Position numbers and translations under genes: made by a program
Shown: one piece after another, positions 26,896 to 64,000 of the stretch
Numbering within the stretch: position 1 is the stretch's first letter
Layout of the letters: each line of letters opens with the position of its first letter
NCBI GenBank assembly: GCA_011052985.1
Contig: DRHY01000178.1
Span: 1-64,000 of the forward strand
From: Methylophaga thalassica
Lineage (GTDB): Bacteria > Pseudomonadota > Gammaproteobacteria > Nitrosococcales > Methylophagaceae
DNA length: 64,000 nt
Direction: 5' to 3'
The notes under the pieces: generated by a model
Database searches by the model: none
What the model was told of the DNA's origin: nothing
The model's input: the letters and a program-made list of their open reading frames with translations, nothing else

Positions 26896-27159
26896 TTAAA
26901 ACAAAGCATCGACTCCAGCTTCTGATATTAATTCGAATTCATTATCAACGTCAGTTTGTCGTGGCTGATGAATTTCATCCTGTTTAGTGTTTCCAGTCAG
27001 GGCCTGGCCATTTAATTTACCTAGCTGTACAAGACCTAAAAGCATTAACTTTCTTGCCTGATAAGCGCGACCACGATCACTAAACATAGATAGATATTCG
27101 TATAGTTCAGGATCTTCTTTACGAGGTATTTTTTGGTTCATTCTAATCTGTTCAACCAT
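26896..27159 (-). CDS. StbB/ParR-like small partner of ParM-like protein
   Basis: An 87-residue protein whose ATG overlaps the stop of the ParM-like gene. The segment FSDRGRAYQARKLMLLGL resembles the DNA-binding helices of small StbB-like adaptors. Such adaptors bind a centromere and link it to the actin filament. The C-terminal part is acidic. The assignment depends mainly on the operon context. Confidence 0.55.
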   Translation of the reverse strand: MVEQIRMNQKIPRKEDPELYEYLSMFSDRGRAYQARKLMLLGLVQLGKLNGQALTGNTKQDEIHQPRQTDVDNEFELISEAGVDALF

Positions 27160-28157
27160 CAGGCTACCTCACGATTTAGCTTTGCAAACCAGGCTTCACC
27201 AATCTTTTGGAAACCAAGTACATTTGCCACGACAGAATTCTCATCACAGTGAATGTTATGTTTTGGAAGTAGTTTCTTGATTGGGTCCAGAAAGATATTT
27301 GCTCCACCACCCACAAGGATGATCTGATCTATGCTTCTACCATCACCCACTTTATTGGATATAGCATCGACTGCCGGCATAATCTCACTGACTGCAGTTT
27401 GGTGGTATTTTGTTAAATCTACATTCTGGCCATACAATCTAAACTGACCTTTTCTGATACCTTCATCAATATGAGAGATATTGTCGTAATTAATCTTTAA
27501 ATCCTCACTTATTCCCTTTGCTACAGCTTTAAGGTAAGCACTCATACCTGTTGGATGACTACCACTTTTACCACTAATCTCTCTCAATCCCGTTGAGACA
27601 AGAAAGTCCACGGTGAAAAAGCCAGGATCAATAAGTAGGTTACGAGTGCTGCTCAACTCTTCTAGCAATTTAGCTTGTGATGCGTAGTGAAGGAAACCTC
27701 CCAAGGGTTGAGAAATTGCGTTGACTTTGCGAACTTGAACATCTCGATTACCAACGCGATGTGTACCTGTAAGGATCTTCTCCAAAATAGCCCGCTTGCT
27801 ACCCATCAAATCGACTGGTAAACCCACAACGAGAAGGTCTATTACATCAACATTCATTTGTGAGATGGCACCGTATAATAGAGCCATATAGTCCTCAGTC
27901 TCGATATAATTATCGTGCATTATGCGAACACCACCCTCTAGAGCAGCATCAACGCCAGGACCTACTTCATAGTTATTGCCATTAACAACAACTTGGTAAA
28001 TATCTTCACTCTCTTGAAAGCTGTTTTTATTAACGCTTGGCCGGTTCACAATAGAAGGGAAATGATCAGCCACAGCTATACCATCAATAACATTTCGTAT
28101 GTATTTAGTATTGCCATAGCCTACGTCTACAGCACGGATAACAGGTGTTTTATTCAC
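27159..28157 (-). CDS. ParM/StbA-like actin, PRTRC system protein D type
   Basis: A 332-residue actin-fold ATPase. Phosphate-1 motif AVDVGYGNTKY is near the start, LLIDPGFFTVDFL is phosphate 2, and IILVGGGANIF is the adenosine motif. The stretch IDLLVVGLPV and the spacing of motifs are what I recall for PRTRC protein D rather than for R1 ParM. The start is GTG seven bases after GGAGG; a longer frame upstream lacks a ribosome site. It would form filaments that segregate DNA. The other PRTRC genes of this window are more than 20 kb away. Confidence 0.8.
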   Translation of the reverse strand: MNKTPVIRAVDVGYGNTKYIRNVIDGIAVADHFPSIVNRPSVNKNSFQESEDIYQVVVNGNNYEVGPGVDAALEGGVRIMHDNYIETEDYMALLYGAISQMNVDVIDLLVVGLPVDLMGSKRAILEKILTGTHRVGNRDVQVRKVNAISQPLGGFLHYASQAKLLEELSSTRNLLIDPGFFTVDFLVSTGLREISGKSGSHPTGMSAYLKAVAKGISEDLKINYDNISHIDEGIRKGQFRLYGQNVDLTKYHQTAVSEIMPAVDAISNKVGDGRSIDQIILVGGGANIFLDPIKKLLPKHNIHCDENSVVANVLGFQKIGEAWFAKLNREVA

Positions 28158-28290
28158 GAACGTTCCTCCACGGAAATTAGAAACGCGCACAGAGATGGCG
28201 TAGATAGCTAGAATAAGTGCGCAGAATTAGATATGAAATGTGGCCTAGAGATGGCCGTTTTGATGCACACTTCCGTGGAAGTTATGCGCA
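28158..28290. promoter_or_regulatory. Control region of the ParM-like operon
   Basis: Near-identical 14-bp sites ACTTCCACGGAA(A/G)T occur at 28269-28282 and, partly, at 28166-28177 over the ribosome site of the ParM-like gene; a third copy lies beyond the operon at 26808-26821. GCGCAC/GTGCGC arms flank 28182-28225, and AGAGATGGC is repeated at 28189 and 28245. These are likely binding sites for the small adaptor and would serve as operator and centromere. Confidence 0.5.
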
Positions 28291-28339
28291 GGAGCGTCAG
28301 TAATGACGTTGATAAATAGGTTACATCGAGCCACCCTAT

Positions 28340-28470
28340 AAAATCAAGCCCCTAAGAGTCCCACAGGACTCCTGTAGAACACGTCCAAGATATTCTCATC
28401 AACAATCCCCTCTAAAAATTGAATAAACAATCCATCTCAAGTCCTGCAGGACATCAGCAGGACACCCTAA
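28340..28470. repeat. Cluster of CAGGAC/GTCCTG repeats
   Basis: Several CAGGAC or GTCCTG words appear in about 120 bp, including the 12-bp palindrome GTCCTGCAGGAC and a hairpin AGTCC-CAC-AGGACT. No gene is present. The cluster may be part of the partition site of the ParM-like system or an origin of transfer; neither is shown. Confidence 0.4.
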
Positions 28471-28540
28471 GTACAAAAAACTCACATATTTATCAGTTTT
28501 CTCAAAAAAGCACTTAAATTGGATTGAAAAAAAACATGCT

Positions 28541-29400
28541 GGAGACTGAGGGGACGAACCAGAATAGAAACCACAGTAAAAACAAGATGATGTAGGAATA
28601 ATGAGACCTTTATTCCGGACTTAGAGAAAAAATCACTCCGTCAAAATACTTGACAGACTAGGGGGGTATGATCTGAAAATGTACCCAATCTTCAAAAGGG
28701 CCCGTTGGGTCTGAAGAGAGCAGCAAGCCAACTGCACATCAAATGGCTCTCTCTAGGCGTTGTTTATCAAACGATGCCCACTCAAAACAAAGACAAAAGA
28801 ACTGAAATATGCTGAAAAATGCATGTTGTCAGATATCTATGTCTGAAATTCATCATGGACACGGTAACAATCGGATTGCTATGGCGATCAAAGTCCAACA
28901 AGTAGGCTGTCTCTATGGAGACACGCATCAATCTAAGTACAGCGAGCTACGGCTTGCCTGTAATCCATACGAAACCACAAAAAGAATGGCCAAAAACCTG
29001 ATGTAAACAAAGTCTGCGATCGGAGTAGCGTTTTACTAGGGCGGACATAACGTGATCGAGCATCCTGCTGGCGGGGATTATTGGGAACAAATTCAATCAC
29101 GATCGTATTTTTGTGTGTATCAAAACCAACCGAACACTTTGTCTATCTGTGACAGGGAGAAACAAAGTAGCTGACTATCGTAAAAATGTCTGTGAAGGGG
29201 TAGGTCGAACATCTACCAAAGCTTTGCAGTGATAGAAGCATCATGTCGGGTCTGAACCAAGCCTTCCATGAAAGATATAACTCACGTTTAAGATGATGCC
29301 GCAGTTAAGAGCTGCACCTGATGAGAGTTCCCTATCGTATGGTGATTGATTGATAACTACTGATGAAAATTAACGAGTGAATAGAGAGGAAAAGCTGCTT
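28541..29400 (+). ncRNA. Candidate large structured RNA (ORF-free)
   Basis: About 860 bp contain no convincing ORF but many local helices. GGAATAA/TTATTCC is at 28595. An interleaved pair, ACCCAA/TTGGGT with CTTCA/TGAAG, at 28683-28716 forms a pseudoknot. GAGAGC/GCTCTC with inner GCCA/TGGC is at 28716-28753. A 10-bp hairpin with two G-T wobbles is at 28756-28778. TGTCTC/GAGACA is at 28908. GCGAGC-TACG-GCTTGC at 28942 has a UNCG-type loop. ACTTTGT/ACAAAGT spans 29136-29168. GCATCAT/ATGATGC encloses 29238-29299. G-T wobbles and a UNCG loop favour RNA over a DNA site. G+C appears higher than in the flanks. The transcribed strand is assumed from the helices. Confidence 0.5.
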
Positions 29401-29430
29401 ATGTAAATAGATAAAAACTGGAGATAAAAA

Positions 29431-30498
29431 ATGAATAATTCATTACACGAACCATACAAACCTCAGCTGACAATTACTGATGGTGTGTATGTATTTGCTG
29501 CACCAGAAATGCGGGGGAGACTAAATAGAAATGGTAAACCTTGGACGGTCAGAACCATATTTGTTTATAACGTTCAGCAAGTGCTCTATCGGAATAATTC
29601 TAAACATGCAAAACGTCAGAAACCTGTTTCTGAAAAAACAAAAGCAAATAGATTTAATGAAATACGCTCTATGGCACATACACTCCATGACCTGGGGTAC
29701 CGGATTACATTGCCTACACATATTCGTCAAAAGCACGTTAAAGCTTTGACACATTTCTGGGAAGCTAGAGAAGACCTCCAGACTGCCTCTGTAGTGCAAA
29801 AAGTATCTATTCTAAGAACCTTTTTGCGGTGGATGGGTAAAGAGGGTGTCATTACTGGACTTAGTGATAAAGAGCTATTTTCCAAACCAGAATTAATGAA
29901 GAGAGAATATGTTGCGAAAGAAGATAAAAGCTGGGATGACAAGTTCGACATAGACGATCTCATTCAAAAAGTAAGTGATGACTGTAAGTACTGTGGTCGT
30001 CAATTGAAGCTCTCACACTTATTTGGCCTGAGAGCTAAAGAATCAATGTTATTTAGACCCAACCTGGATTACGACAGAGAAGGGCAATTCATTCATGTTC
30101 GTCGTGGCACTAAAGGTGGCCGTCCTAGAACAGTGCCTATTGAATCAGTTGAGCAACGCCAGTACCTAGAAGAGCTCTTGACGTATAGCTATGACATCAA
30201 TGAGTCCATGATTCCACGTCGATATACTCCTAGCAGCTGGATTAAACGTTATTACCGGATAACAAATAGAAATGGAATCTCACGGAAAACAGGCATAACA
30301 CCACACGGCCTGAGACATGGTTACGCACAAAGACTGTATACACGCACTACAGGGCATCCTGCAGCAGTAAAAGATGTACCTAAAATTGCACGAGATATAG
30401 ACATGATCGAGGAAAGGATAGCCAGGCTTATGGTTTCAGAAAACCTTGGCCATAGTAGGGAGTCAATCACGAGCGCTTACATAGGGAGTAATGATTAA
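29431..30498 (+). CDS. Tyrosine recombinase (Integrase_1-like family)
   Basis: A 355-residue recombinase of the family with PF12834/PF12835-like domains common on conjugative elements. The catalytic half shows FGLRAKESMLFRP (first Arg), RRGTKGGRPRTVPI (Lys strand), HGLRHGYAQ (HxxR), ENLGHSRESITSAYIG (His and nucleophile Tyr). Residues about 20-150 form the SAM-like arm. A ribosome site GGAGA precedes the ATG. It heads a rightward four-gene unit and comes directly after the large ORF-free structured region. Confidence 0.8.
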   Translation: MNNSLHEPYKPQLTITDGVYVFAAPEMRGRLNRNGKPWTVRTIFVYNVQQVLYRNNSKHAKRQKPVSEKTKANRFNEIRSMAHTLHDLGYRITLPTHIRQKHVKALTHFWEAREDLQTASVVQKVSILRTFLRWMGKEGVITGLSDKELFSKPELMKREYVAKEDKSWDDKFDIDDLIQKVSDDCKYCGRQLKLSHLFGLRAKESMLFRPNLDYDREGQFIHVRRGTKGGRPRTVPIESVEQRQYLEELLTYSYDINESMIPRRYTPSSWIKRYYRITNRNGISRKTGITPHGLRHGYAQRLYTRTTGHPAAVKDVPKIARDIDMIEERIARLMVSENLGHSRESITSAYIGSND

Positions 30499-30869
30499 TG
30501 TGCTATTCCCATTCAGCTATGTCATCAACATGTACCTATTCTCTAATGTCCAAGAATTACTATTTCAGTGATAACCATTGGGATCGGTTATTAGATATTG
30601 TTATTTCAACTGGCCAAGTAGATGATCTGAGCACCACAGCTCTTGATGTTCTAAATAGAATTAGTGATAACGGGGACCCAACCACATATGTATCACTTGT
30701 TCAGTTGCACGAGTTAAAACAGAAAACTGGCAAAAAATACTCGAGTGTTTTTAGAGCTATTACAGAGTTAGTTCAAGCAGAAATTATCATTCATCGCTAT
30801 GACATTGATGCTTCCGTTTACATGCTTCATCCACGTTTAATTCGTACAGTAACAAGGATGGTGTCGTGA
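30498..30869 (+). CDS. Winged-helix protein (RepL/MarR-like)
   Basis: A 123-residue protein with a winged helix near residues 35-115: LHELKQKTGKKYSSVFRAITELVQAE is a recognition-helix pattern and SVYMLHPRLI resembles the YxINP segment of RepL-like plasmid replication proteins. It could be a regulator of the recombinase or a replication factor. Its start overlaps the recombinase stop, so it is cotranscribed. Confidence 0.5.
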   Translation: MCYSHSAMSSTCTYSLMSKNYYFSDNHWDRLLDIVISTGQVDDLSTTALDVLNRISDNGDPTTYVSLVQLHELKQKTGKKYSSVFRAITELVQAEIIIHRYDIDASVYMLHPRLIRTVTRMVS

Positions 30870-34517: not shown

Positions 34518-36272
34518 TCAAGCAGCTTCAAACATATCAAGTTGCATTGGAATTACATTGATTATCTCTGCAGTTTTACTGTCTATTTTTTCTGGATAAA
34601 ATGAACGTGACAACAACTCTTCGACGTCTATACCTGGACCTACCAGTCCGAGACCTTCTTTAACTACAGTTCGCCTCAGAATAGCATCGTGAAGTGATAG
34701 CTGCTGAGGACTAAGACTAACAACTCCCATACTCACCCACCATTTATATCCTCGTGTGTAGCCGCGAGATAGAGTTGTGTCACTTCGTATATCCATCATT
34801 CTGTCATACTCAAAATCGATAGCTAGTACAGCTCCCTCAAAATCAACATCAAAGCTGGACTCGGTTTCGACATCCATTACAACCTTACCATTCTTAAGCG
34901 TCCGTACTCCCATACAATGGCTAGGGTCGAAGAATTCCATTTCAATCATTCGTAGTCCGTCAAAGACACCTTGCGAATAGGCATCACCCTCGACTTTAAA
35001 ATACTTAGTTTTGGGCATAGGAGTTCGTTTTACATAGTCAATGTCGGGGACAGGGTAGCGAACACCATTCTCGAAGATATCCTTATACTCAACAATAGCC
35101 TGAAATGGCCTGTGCATCCCTTGTAATGACCATAAAGCATCAATAGCAATCAGTCCTTCAAACGAGATTAATTGAAATCGTGGAAGAGATAAGCCGGCAG
35201 CGTATGCTGCTTCCTGTTCCTCGGCGTCAATAGTCAATGCATAACGAAGTAAGTCCAGGCACATCTCTGGTGAATAAGTGTCAGGACGTATTTTCAAACA
35301 ACCATCATCTGTAAGTGTACGGCCAACCCAATTACGTCGAGAGTAGTCCCACTGAGTTTTAAACATGAAATTTCTAAGACGATTAGCATTGACCATGTAG
35401 CCATATTTTTCTCGATCCGATTGAATCATATTTTCCAGAGACTTATCAGTTTTCCCCACTCTAAGACAAGTAATACAACCGCTTCGCGCCGTACAACTAT
35501 TACCTCTCTGAGATTTTAAGCTTTCCGTGATTGAATCCGAAATTACAGCACACCCAGAAGCTCCAGAGTCTGCGTATATACGAGTCAAATCTTCAAAGTC
35601 AGAGTAAGACTCAATCAAACCAGAACGTACATAACCAATCCATTCCCACACGTCATCTGTTTCAAAGTCAGCAATAGCAGCAAACACCAAATCTCCGTCT
35701 TTGTTTCTCATGGGTGAAAGGTGTGTTTCCTTACGCTTTTCCATTTTCTTTCCTCTGGCCACAGATTCAGAATAACGAGTGCCAACCAAAGTGACGACTT
35801 CTTTTCCTGATTTCCCAGCGACATCATTCAGCATTTTCTTACGCAGCCGCTTCATAGGCTTTATTTTGAGGTCAGTAGTGCAATCGGAATTGGTAGTAGG
35901 GAAAGAAGGCAAGCAACGACCACTAAAGATGCCTACTGCCCATTCATCATTCAGGTTTGGTCGAGCTATCTGAAAATCTAGATCCAGGCCATGCTTATCA
36001 GCAAACTTGAGTAATCTCTGAGAGTCCTTCAGTACGTGCATAGATATTTCGGGGTTTTCAACACCGGTATCACTATTGGTAGCCAGAATACGAGGGAATA
36101 TACCTTTTGATTTTGCTCGAAGGGCAGCATGGAGAGTAATGTCCATCAAAACACTACTATCTTTACCTGAACTGGTACTGACAGCTATAGGTATACCATC
36201 CATAAATAACTCTTCAATTCTTGTTATAGCAGCTTCAAATTTAGGATTATTCATGGTGCTCATTTTGTTCAC
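34518..36272 (-). CDS. PAPS-reductase/DndC-like sulfurtransferase
   Basis: A 584-residue ATP-pyrophosphatase-fold enzyme. The PP-loop STSSGKDSSVL lies near residue 33, and NSDTGVENPE follows. A Cys cluster (SCTARSGCITCLRVGKTDKSL, about 255-275) closely matches the iron-sulfur site of DndC-type proteins, which activate sulfur for DNA phosphorothioation. The C-terminal 250 residues are an extension of unknown role. No dndB, dndD, dndE or ssp genes are nearby, so it would have to work alone, with host partners, or in another pathway. The first start is GTG, but two in-frame ATGs follow closely and none has a strong ribosome site. Family certain; role open. Confidence 0.75.
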   Translation of the reverse strand: MNKMSTMNNPKFEAAITRIEELFMDGIPIAVSTSSGKDSSVLMDITLHAALRAKSKGIFPRILATNSDTGVENPEISMHVLKDSQRLLKFADKHGLDLDFQIARPNLNDEWAVGIFSGRCLPSFPTTNSDCTTDLKIKPMKRLRKKMLNDVAGKSGKEVVTLVGTRYSESVARGKKMEKRKETHLSPMRNKDGDLVFAAIADFETDDVWEWIGYVRSGLIESYSDFEDLTRIYADSGASGCAVISDSITESLKSQRGNSCTARSGCITCLRVGKTDKSLENMIQSDREKYGYMVNANRLRNFMFKTQWDYSRRNWVGRTLTDDGCLKIRPDTYSPEMCLDLLRYALTIDAEEQEAAYAAGLSLPRFQLISFEGLIAIDALWSLQGMHRPFQAIVEYKDIFENGVRYPVPDIDYVKRTPMPKTKYFKVEGDAYSQGVFDGLRMIEMEFFDPSHCMGVRTLKNGKVVMDVETESSFDVDFEGAVLAIDFEYDRMMDIRSDTTLSRGYTRGYKWWVSMGVVSLSPQQLSLHDAILRRTVVKEGLGLVGPGIDVEELLSRSFYPEKIDSKTAEIINVIPMQLDMFEAA

Positions 36273-63052: not shown

Positions 63053-63376
63053 ATGAACAAGAAAGTAACGTATTCCCCAGAAGTCCGCGAACGCGCCGTT
63101 CGCATGGTATTGACCTCAGAGCATGAACATCCTTCAAGGTGGGCGACTTTGGTGTCTATTTCATCTAAAATCGGTTGTACGCCTGAGACATTAAGAACAT
63201 GGGTAAGCAAAATGAAAGTGGATTCAGGTAAGAAACCGGGTGTCCCTTCTGATGCTGCAGCTAAAATAAAAGATCTTGAGCGAGAGAATCGAGAGCTTAA
63301 ACAAGCCAATGAGATCCTGAAAAAAGCAGCCGCATTTTTTGCTCAGGCGGAGCTCGACCGCAAACCTCGAAAATAA
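63053..63376 (+). CDS. IS3-family transposase OrfA
   Basis: A 107-residue OrfA: helix-turn-helix start (YSPEVRERAVRMVL, then GCTPETLRTWVSKM) and a leucine-zipper-like tail (DLERENRELKQANEILKKA). A slippery AAAAAAG at 63320 can shift ribosomes by -1 to make the OrfAB transposase. Confidence 0.85.
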   Translation: MNKKVTYSPEVRERAVRMVLTSEHEHPSRWATLVSISSKIGCTPETLRTWVSKMKVDSGKKPGVPSDAAAKIKDLERENRELKQANEILKKAAAFFAQAELDRKPRK

Positions 63377-64000
63377 TCCAATTCATTGATGTGTATAGAG
63401 CGTTGCATGGTGTCGAGCCGATCTGTCGTGTGTTACAGATCGCACCCTCAACGTATTACCGTTGCAAAGTGCTGGAGGCTGAGCCTGAACGTCGCTGCCA
63501 GCGTTACCATCAGGATGAAGCAATAAAACCACAAATCCAGCGTGTCTGGCAGGAGAATCGTCGATGTTATGGTGTCAGGAAGGTATGGAAGCAGTTACAA
63601 CGCGAGGGCTTTCATGTGGCTCGTTGTACTGTTGCTCGACTTATGGCCGTATTGGAACTGCAAGGTGTACGCCGAGGCCGGCGTTGCATTACGACGATTC
63701 CTGATGAGAGTGCCGCCAAACCTCTGGACTTGGTCAATCGTGAGTTCACAGCTCAGCGCCCCAATCAATTGTGGGTTGCCGATATTACTTATGTGGCTAC
63801 TTGGTCAGGTTTTGTCTATGTAGCCTTTGTGACCGATGTATTTTCACGCAAGATCGTCGGTTGGCGAGTCATGAAGTCCATGCGGACACAACTCATTCTT
63901 GATGCACTGGAACAAGCTTTATGGGCACGAGGTAAACCTAAAGGCGTTATTCATCATAGTGATCGTGGCAGTCAGTATGTGTCCATTCGCTATTCCGAGC
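63325..64000 (+). CDS. IS3-family transposase OrfB (partial)
   Basis: The integrase-like half in the -1 frame after the slippery site. It shows the IS3 N-terminal block (CYGVRKVWKQL), then the first catalytic Asp in WVADITYV and the second in FVTDVFSRKIVGW, and HHSDRGSQYVS. The last catalytic Glu lies beyond the window. Confidence 0.8.

Follow-up and report, generated by a model that had tools for sequence, protein, structure and literature searches.

The window, i.e. the whole stretch of 64,000 nt of Methylophaga DNA analysed here, represents contig C178 of a 2.86-Mb draft genome. Its nearest relatives are Methylophaga plasmids, and genes of an integrating conjugative element are present on one side. 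The element under study sits between a divergent ParM-like gene and the gene of a tyrosine recombinase, in an interval poor in open reading frames that extends from the start of the former (about 28157, minus strand) to that of the latter (29431, plus strand). The features of the locus are listed below; identities refer to the copies on a second contig of the same genome (C196) and on a plasmid of M. pinxianii.

27159–28157, minus strand: gene of a ParM-like segregation ATPase (PRTRC system protein D; TIGR03739, 9.5e-84), start according to the annotation of the M. thalassica plasmid L003
28240–28310, plus strand: conserved 5′ block found in six copies, consisting of a GGCC hairpin and a T run (terminator-like, 28242–28261), followed by ACUUC-CGUG-GAAGU and CGUCA-loop-UGACG
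28257–28270, plus strand: GTTTTGATGCACAC, complementary to GTGTGTATCAAAAC at 29113–29126 (93% of 14 positions)
28331–28490, no strand assigned: poorly conserved spacer (62% and 51% identity to C196 and M. pinxianii, respectively) with AGTCCTGCAGGAC / GCAGGAC repeats at 28365–28470
28491–28540, plus strand: conserved stretch abutting the core on its 5′ side (76–82% identity)
28541–29400, plus strand: core of the putative large structured RNA (identity above that of the integrase coding sequence, consensus fold z −7.3, RNAalifold model)
28683–28716, plus strand: stem-loop region of a previously proposed pseudoknot (see below)
28875–28888, plus strand: hairpin with the loop UAUG, UACG, or CACG at 28880–28883 and a 5-pair stem in at least 80% of six copies
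28909–28922, plus strand: hairpin with the loop UAUG or UACG at 28914–28917 and a 5-pair stem in at least 80% of six copies
28942–28957, plus strand: hairpin GCGAGC-UACG-GCUUGC, outermost pair lost in three of six copies, loop UACG in five and CACG in one
29001–29130, plus strand: best-conserved stretch of the RNA (99% and 88.5% identity to C196 and M. pinxianii)
29431–30498, plus strand: gene of a tyrosine recombinase of 355 aa with the domains Phage_int_SAM_2 and Integrase_1 (PF12835, 8.9e-10; PF00589, 5.6e-8; PF12834, 2.6e-6)

A five-way alignment of the recombinase, hereafter called integrase, has the invariant columns R201, H292, R295, H341, and Y350, which correspond to the catalytic R, H-x-x-R, H, and Y of a tyrosine recombinase. 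The region 28158–28330 has 71% identity between copies, and the 5′ block within it may be either the 5′ part of the RNA or a control region of the ParM-like gene. Both GTTTTGATGCACAC and GTGTGTATCAAAAC are kept in all six Methylophaga copies, and their complementarity may reflect pairing or paired protein sites. From their position, the repeats of the spacer are likely to be the centromere of the ParM-like system, and the conserved stretch at 28491–28540 is a possible promoter region. Two kilobases 3′ of the integrase gene lies a ParD-like/ParE-like toxin-antitoxin pair (PF11903, PF15781; 32598–33106, plus strand), and a protein of 584 aa encoded at 34518–36272 (minus strand) has a borderline PAPS reductase domain (PF01507, 22.4 bits versus a cut-off of 22.5). 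A cmscan search of the whole window at the gathering score gave a single match, the ALIL pseudoknot (RF01497, 94.5 bits) at 63331–63447, far away from the element. ALIL is a frameshift signal of IS3-type insertion sequences.

An initial annotation of this DNA had described the core as devoid of a convincing open reading frame and as a large structured RNA. The lone core frame of at least 60 aa, at 28809–29006 (65 aa), is indeed poorly kept. It is annotated as “hypothetical protein” in the closest relative (M. thalassica), its start is lost in the copies of C196, G041, and M. pinxianii, the indels across the six copies are all of one or two bases, and it has no match in Pfam or NCBIfam. The frame is most likely a false gene call. 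A coding reading was rejected on the grounds of the unkept start, the short indels, and the lack of a family match; conserved coding potential is absent, and the match to coding sequence that the annotation had named as counter-evidence did not turn up. It had also stated that the base composition differs from that of the flanks, which is true for the AT skew (up to 0.25–0.28) but not for the G+C content (0.41–0.43 versus 0.37–0.43 around it).

Full-length similar DNA is present on plasmids of M. thalassica (98.6% identity) and M. pinxianii (82%), on contig C196 (87%), and in the genomes G041 (86%), G053 (99%), and G035 (99%, split over two contig ends). Conserved non-coding homologues, named by the annotation as a check of its proposal, do exist, and those found are all from Methylophaga. 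In addition, a contig end of G041 (G041:C15; L011, L167) carries the 5′ end of a more diverged copy (78% over 74 bases), so that G041 may have two copies of the RNA. With gaps counted, the identity of the core is 86% to C196 and 79% to M. pinxianii. The respective values are 77% and 72% for the integrase coding sequence and, for aligned bases, 77% and 76% for the ParM-like coding sequence. The order of conservation is RNA, integrase, spacer, and the slower change of the non-coding core compared with both neighbouring genes indicates a strong constraint. Conserved DNA continues beyond the core up to 29430, directly before the integrase start, and the RNA may extend beyond the bounds given for the core. 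The RNA is found in 4 of the 63 genomes of the order, all of one genus. Matches of 35 bases in G005 and G007 fall into chromosomal coding genes and are due to chance, lowering the family count from 6 to 4 of 57 genomes. No similar sequence was found in phage records, and viral contigs had no match to one exact 24-base pattern.

The single-sequence fold of the core has a z value of −2.57 (20 shuffles). The consensus of the six copies has an energy of −369, compared with −302 ± 9 for column shuffles that preserve gap counts and conservation classes (z −7.3, better than all 60 shuffles). The consensus fold comprises 232–259 pairs, and the reverse strand folds less well in Methylophaga (−324). The number of double-changed pairs is 14, versus 7.1 ± 2.3 and at most 13 in the 60 shuffles. 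Both the folding beyond chance and the compensatory changes that the annotation had anticipated were therefore found, and the structure is conserved. The integrase coding sequence, used as a control, gave a z value of −2.7 and 29 double-changed pairs versus 18 ± 4.1 (maximum 30), this higher number of pairs being due to its higher divergence.

The named helices fared differently. The proposed UNCG-type hairpin at 28942–28957 gained support: one pair is double-changed (G-C to A-U) and two are kept by one-sided changes. The proposed pseudoknot is half supported, its helix CTTCA/TGAAG being invariant and hence neutral, whereas ACCCAA/TTGGGT loses one or two of six pairs in four of the six sequences. 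The proposed closing helix GCATCAT/ATGATGC (29238–29244 and 29293–29299) has to be abandoned, with three or four of its seven pairs broken in three diverged copies. The model contains other long-range helices, which pair about 28718–28724 with about 29394–29400 and nest inwards; they are mostly invariant and thus predicted rather than proven. An inverted repeat (28243–28260 and 28741–28758) that pairs in the window was discarded, as by inspection it does not pair in C196.

The main point, which the initial annotation had missed, is the tie of the RNA to the neighbouring recombinase family (PF12834/PF12835). The RNA occurs in 4 of 24 Methylophaga genomes, and exactly these four contain the integrase at 84–100% identity. 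In the six aligned copies, the gene order is ParM-like gene, RNA, integrase. The RNA is thus inherited together with the tyrosine recombinase encoded just downstream. In a fifth genome, G033, the integrase is a distant one (32%), and the non-coding stretch that precedes it, about 0.8 kb long, belongs to a different type.

In a search with the family profile (E at most 1e-30), 28 of 369 genomes of the class were found to encode the integrase. Relatives of it are encoded in 147 stretches in genome contigs, 80 of which were retained. A ParM-like gene is recognisable at 53 of 113 loci (L014–L126), a set that includes the Methylophaga loci and loci with short flanks, at which the gene could escape view. 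At 52 of the 53 loci, the ParM-like gene lies upstream of the integrase gene in divergent orientation, with 1064–1693 nt between the two protein matches, and at one (L101) it lies downstream.

For annotated plasmid records, we determined the gap upstream of the integrase gene. Values of 616–2109 nt were found in all 28 records, 13 of which (L003, L004, L137–L141, and L143–L148) were picked by DNA similarity and are therefore not independent, while 12 (L014–L016, L127–L131, and L133–L136) represent protein matches hand-picked for spread and three (L149–L151) were chosen as a test of small plasmids. Hypothetical genes within the gap (L003, L015, and L127; 65, 72, and 150 aa, respectively) and small genes abutting or overlapping the integrase start (L016, L129, L131, and L151) were set aside. 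L132 was counted through L150, and L142 was omitted because the integrase is missing from its table. The gap is at least 1000 nt in 25 of the 28 records, the three shorter ones being L140, L150, and L151, and the gap-bearing plasmids span three proteobacterial classes. Rhizobiaceae plasmids retain the gap although no ParM-like gene is annotated beside it, indicating that the gap accompanies the integrase. Small plasmids of Acinetobacter, Shewanella, and Gallibacterium likewise have gaps, which may hold replication origins. A mechanical count of gaps between open reading frames at the fetched loci (120 aa) gave medians of 306 nt upstream (75 loci) and 140 nt downstream (105 loci), but it is too noisy in G+C-rich DNA, so that the annotated gaps were used.

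Eight sequence groups besides Methylophaga have upstream stretches that fold as well, with z values of −7 to −17. A global alignment of 30 betaproteobacterial loci was poor, and smaller groups were therefore used; the pair counts rest on MAFFT alignments of diverged DNA. The 15 Cupriavidus loci have 165 pairs, 40 of them double-changed versus 11.5 ± 3.0 (maximum 20), and a z value of −9.9, compared with +0.3 for the Cupriavidus integrase coding sequence. The nine Burkholderia/Paraburkholderia loci have 48 double-changed pairs versus 22.5 (maximum 32; z −11.4), and the seven Rhizobiaceae loci have 19 versus 15.6 (maximum 24; z −10.1). For six groups analysed with 24 shuffles (columns 331–1000), the z values were −12.9 (P13), −16.7 (M8), −7.4 (R5), −15.2 (G5), −7.3 (Y4), and −5.4 (X4). 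X4 was given no weight, as it consists of four nearly identical sequences and has the better fold on the reverse strand. The double-changed pairs remain within the shuffle maximum for Rhizobiaceae, R5, G5, and X4, and narrowly exceed it for Y4 (30 versus 28). The plus strand gives the better fold in Methylophaga, Cupriavidus, Burkholderia, and M8; in Rhizobiaceae, P13, R5, G5, Y4, and X4 the reverse strand is about equal or slightly better.

The ends of the Cupriavidus element are joined by GCGATACCAAGCCGAT / ATCGGTTTGGCATCGC, and the counterpart strands of Burkholderia, GCGATATCCATACGAT / ATCGGATGGAATCGC, again pair with each other. Profile HMMs connect Cupriavidus with Burkholderia along some 500 positions (E values as low as 1e-47), and several of the Massilia/Piscinibacter groups with one another; they link the Methylophaga RNA to none of the other groups. 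With a covariance model of 28845–28968, run against the window and 82 of 154 loci, no match above E 0.76 came from outside Methylophaga, and the 25 loci scanned from these groups and from two Methylophaga copies had no match in Rfam. At L164:1324–1339 and in the G5 consensus, the non-coding stretch contains, well upstream of the integrase start, AAAGGAGGTGA, the complement of the 3′ end of 16S rRNA. An ATG with an immediate stop comes next in the G5 consensus.

The element in the window is best read as a large structured non-coding RNA, as suggested by its fold and its loops. This reading is supported by the homologues, the compensatory changes, the non-coding pattern of change, and the absence of a match among 4227 Rfam families. 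We propose, with middling confidence, that a plus-strand RNA of at least about 0.86 kb works with the downstream recombinase as one module of plasmid maintenance. The RNA would be transcribed towards the recombinase gene, and probably jointly with it, as judged from the lack of a plus-strand terminator in between. It would control the synthesis of the recombinase, or bind the recombinase or its DNA complex, and would thereby time or direct recombination, e.g. multimer resolution, relative to the ParM-like segregation. The function of such a module, in which ParM-like segregation and centromere repeats would join the RNA and the recombinase, is suggested by the neighbourhood, with Rcd as a precedent. 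Rcd of ColE1 cer is a small RNA inside a plasmid recombination site, which ties dimer resolution to cell division and shows by example that a recombination module may include an RNA; as described in PMC5357621, it has 70 nt and belongs to a XerCD site, whereas the Methylophaga element is more than ten times longer and lies beside a plasmid-encoded recombinase. STAXI, also a structured RNA motif, often occurs in the vicinity of integrases and other genes of DNA handling, and differs in consisting, according to the description in PMC2864571, of two or three repeats of a short pseudoknot in Enterobacteriales (RF01728), while the Methylophaga RNA matches no Rfam family. In our ranking, control of the recombinase by the RNA or a partnership between the two comes first, followed by a pure leader and then by a folded DNA.

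The RNA could also be a very long cis-acting 5′ leader, i.e. the front of the integrase mRNA, whose folding would set expression, perhaps by attenuation or by hiding of the ribosome site. This is possible, though we would not expect it. The element, with its strand as indicated by the fold, lies directly upstream of the integrase gene on the same strand, no plus-strand terminator was found between them, and in both Methylophaga and the Rhizobiaceae group the conservation extends as far as the start codon. Terminator-like hairpins are present 5′ of the element in Methylophaga (28242–28261) and directly before the structured element of Cupriavidus (L014, 3162–3179). The latter lies behind the one promoter-like site found in L014 and resembles an attenuator. 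On the other hand, 860 nt is far above the usual length of leaders, the element of Cupriavidus and Burkholderia stops about 140–400 nt short of the start codon, with poorly conserved DNA in between, and the gap in Gallibacterium, Shewanella, and Acinetobacter may instead hold a replication origin. A promoter scan of 28150–30600 revealed no sigma-70-like site. At L014:3025–3179 and in the aligned Cupriavidus and Burkholderia sequences, the promoter-like site is followed by a leader with the conserved GCGTCnCCGACGCATCGA and by the terminator-like hairpin with a T run; this stretch is possibly an attenuator or a separate small RNA. A transcriptome paper on C. metallidurans CH34 reports 578 intergenic start sites.

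It is unlikely that the element acts as folded single-stranded DNA, in the manner of an attC recombination site, or as a set of protein-binding palindromes, with the RNA fold signal as a by-product. Integron attC sites are folded palindromic elements of tyrosine recombinases, short single hairpins that act as DNA. The element adjoins such a recombinase, yet, at about 860 nt, it is branched and has loops of the RNA type, and its more than 200 pairs and many hairpins are far beyond attC-like sites. Among the conserved four-base hairpin loops of nine groups pooled, GNRA and UNCG loops represent 25 of 108 on the plus strand and 3 of 91 on the minus strand, counts that are not a probability because the rows within a group are related. 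This enrichment on one strand and the better folding of the plus strand in Methylophaga, Cupriavidus, Burkholderia, and M8 argue against DNA. In favour of it, the single changes that give G-T versus A-C, counted without the two coding controls, are nearly balanced: 23:17 on the plus fold and 23:23 on the minus fold in Methylophaga, and about even in the other groups (single-sequence folds). A clade of integrases of about 300 aa has an upstream hairpin with the invariant inner arms GTCACT...AGTGAC (L164:930–965, L108:430, L109:924, L133:2451, L131:2373, L151:942, L150:55, and others), present in 18 of 20 tree rows of the clade and in 0 of 47 others. Its outer arms differ wholly between loci and are nevertheless complementary over up to 15 bp. 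Given this hairpin with variable arms, a folded-DNA reading may apply to the clade of shorter integrases; the inner motif is absent from the Methylophaga RNA.

Even less probable is an ornate RNA that acts in trans in the manner of GOLLD or ROOL, as a homo-oligomer and perhaps a cage, for which the adjacency of the integrase would reflect plasmid upkeep and not function. The Methylophaga RNA is alike in its size, its many hairpins, its long-range helices, and its setting on mobile DNA. GOLLD, ROOL, and OLE are described in PMC12286853 as RNAs of several hundred bases with many helices, partly on mobile DNA, and with a poorly understood function. GOLLD and ROOL, of similar size and unknown function, are placed there in phages and prophages near tRNAs, while the Methylophaga RNA is found on plasmids beside a recombinase, and the 64 kb of the window contain no tRNA. 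The initial annotation had been unable to assign the RNA to GOLLD, ROOL, or another known family, and this holds: no covariance model of GOLLD, ROOL, or OLE matches it, and a search of Rfam with E values up to 10 on 28200–29500 gave two chance snoRNA matches only. Its absence from phage records and, for the one exact pattern, from viral contigs also speaks against this alternative, and its association with a single recombinase family in three classes favours a functional link. An unrecognised or decayed protein gene can be dismissed as highly improbable, as the annotated frame of 65 aa is contradicted by its lost starts, the indels of one or two bases, and the lack of a family match, and the DNA is better conserved than the real genes alongside.

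We regard the Methylophaga element as a new member of the large structured RNAs, broadly comparable to GOLLD and ROOL but with another and more informative gene beside it; our searches of open-licence papers retrieved no description of it. A wider reading, which we offer very tentatively, is that the proteobacterial plasmid recombinase family as a whole is linked to RNAs, each clade having a large folded RNA of its own upstream of the gene, and that the RNA is a structural partner, implying a ribonucleoprotein recombination or a licensing by RNA. The types of this scheme would be those of Methylophaga, of Cupriavidus/Burkholderia, of Massilia/Piscinibacter, and of the alpha- and gammaproteobacteria with the GTCACT hairpin.

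Large structured bacterial RNAs are few, and those on mobile DNA are without a clear function. The RNA described here lies beside an enzyme of known chemistry, which offers tractable genetics and a definite partner to test, both hitherto lacking. Related enzymes adjoin similar stretches in three classes of Proteobacteria, including the well-studied plasmids pMOL28 and pHG1. On pMOL28 of C. metallidurans CH34, the stretch is at 130048–131175 of NC_007972.2, minus strand. Should the RNA and the recombinase indeed act together, an RNA component would be added to site-specific recombination by tyrosine recombinases; to our knowledge, the only precedent, a distant one, is Rcd of ColE1.
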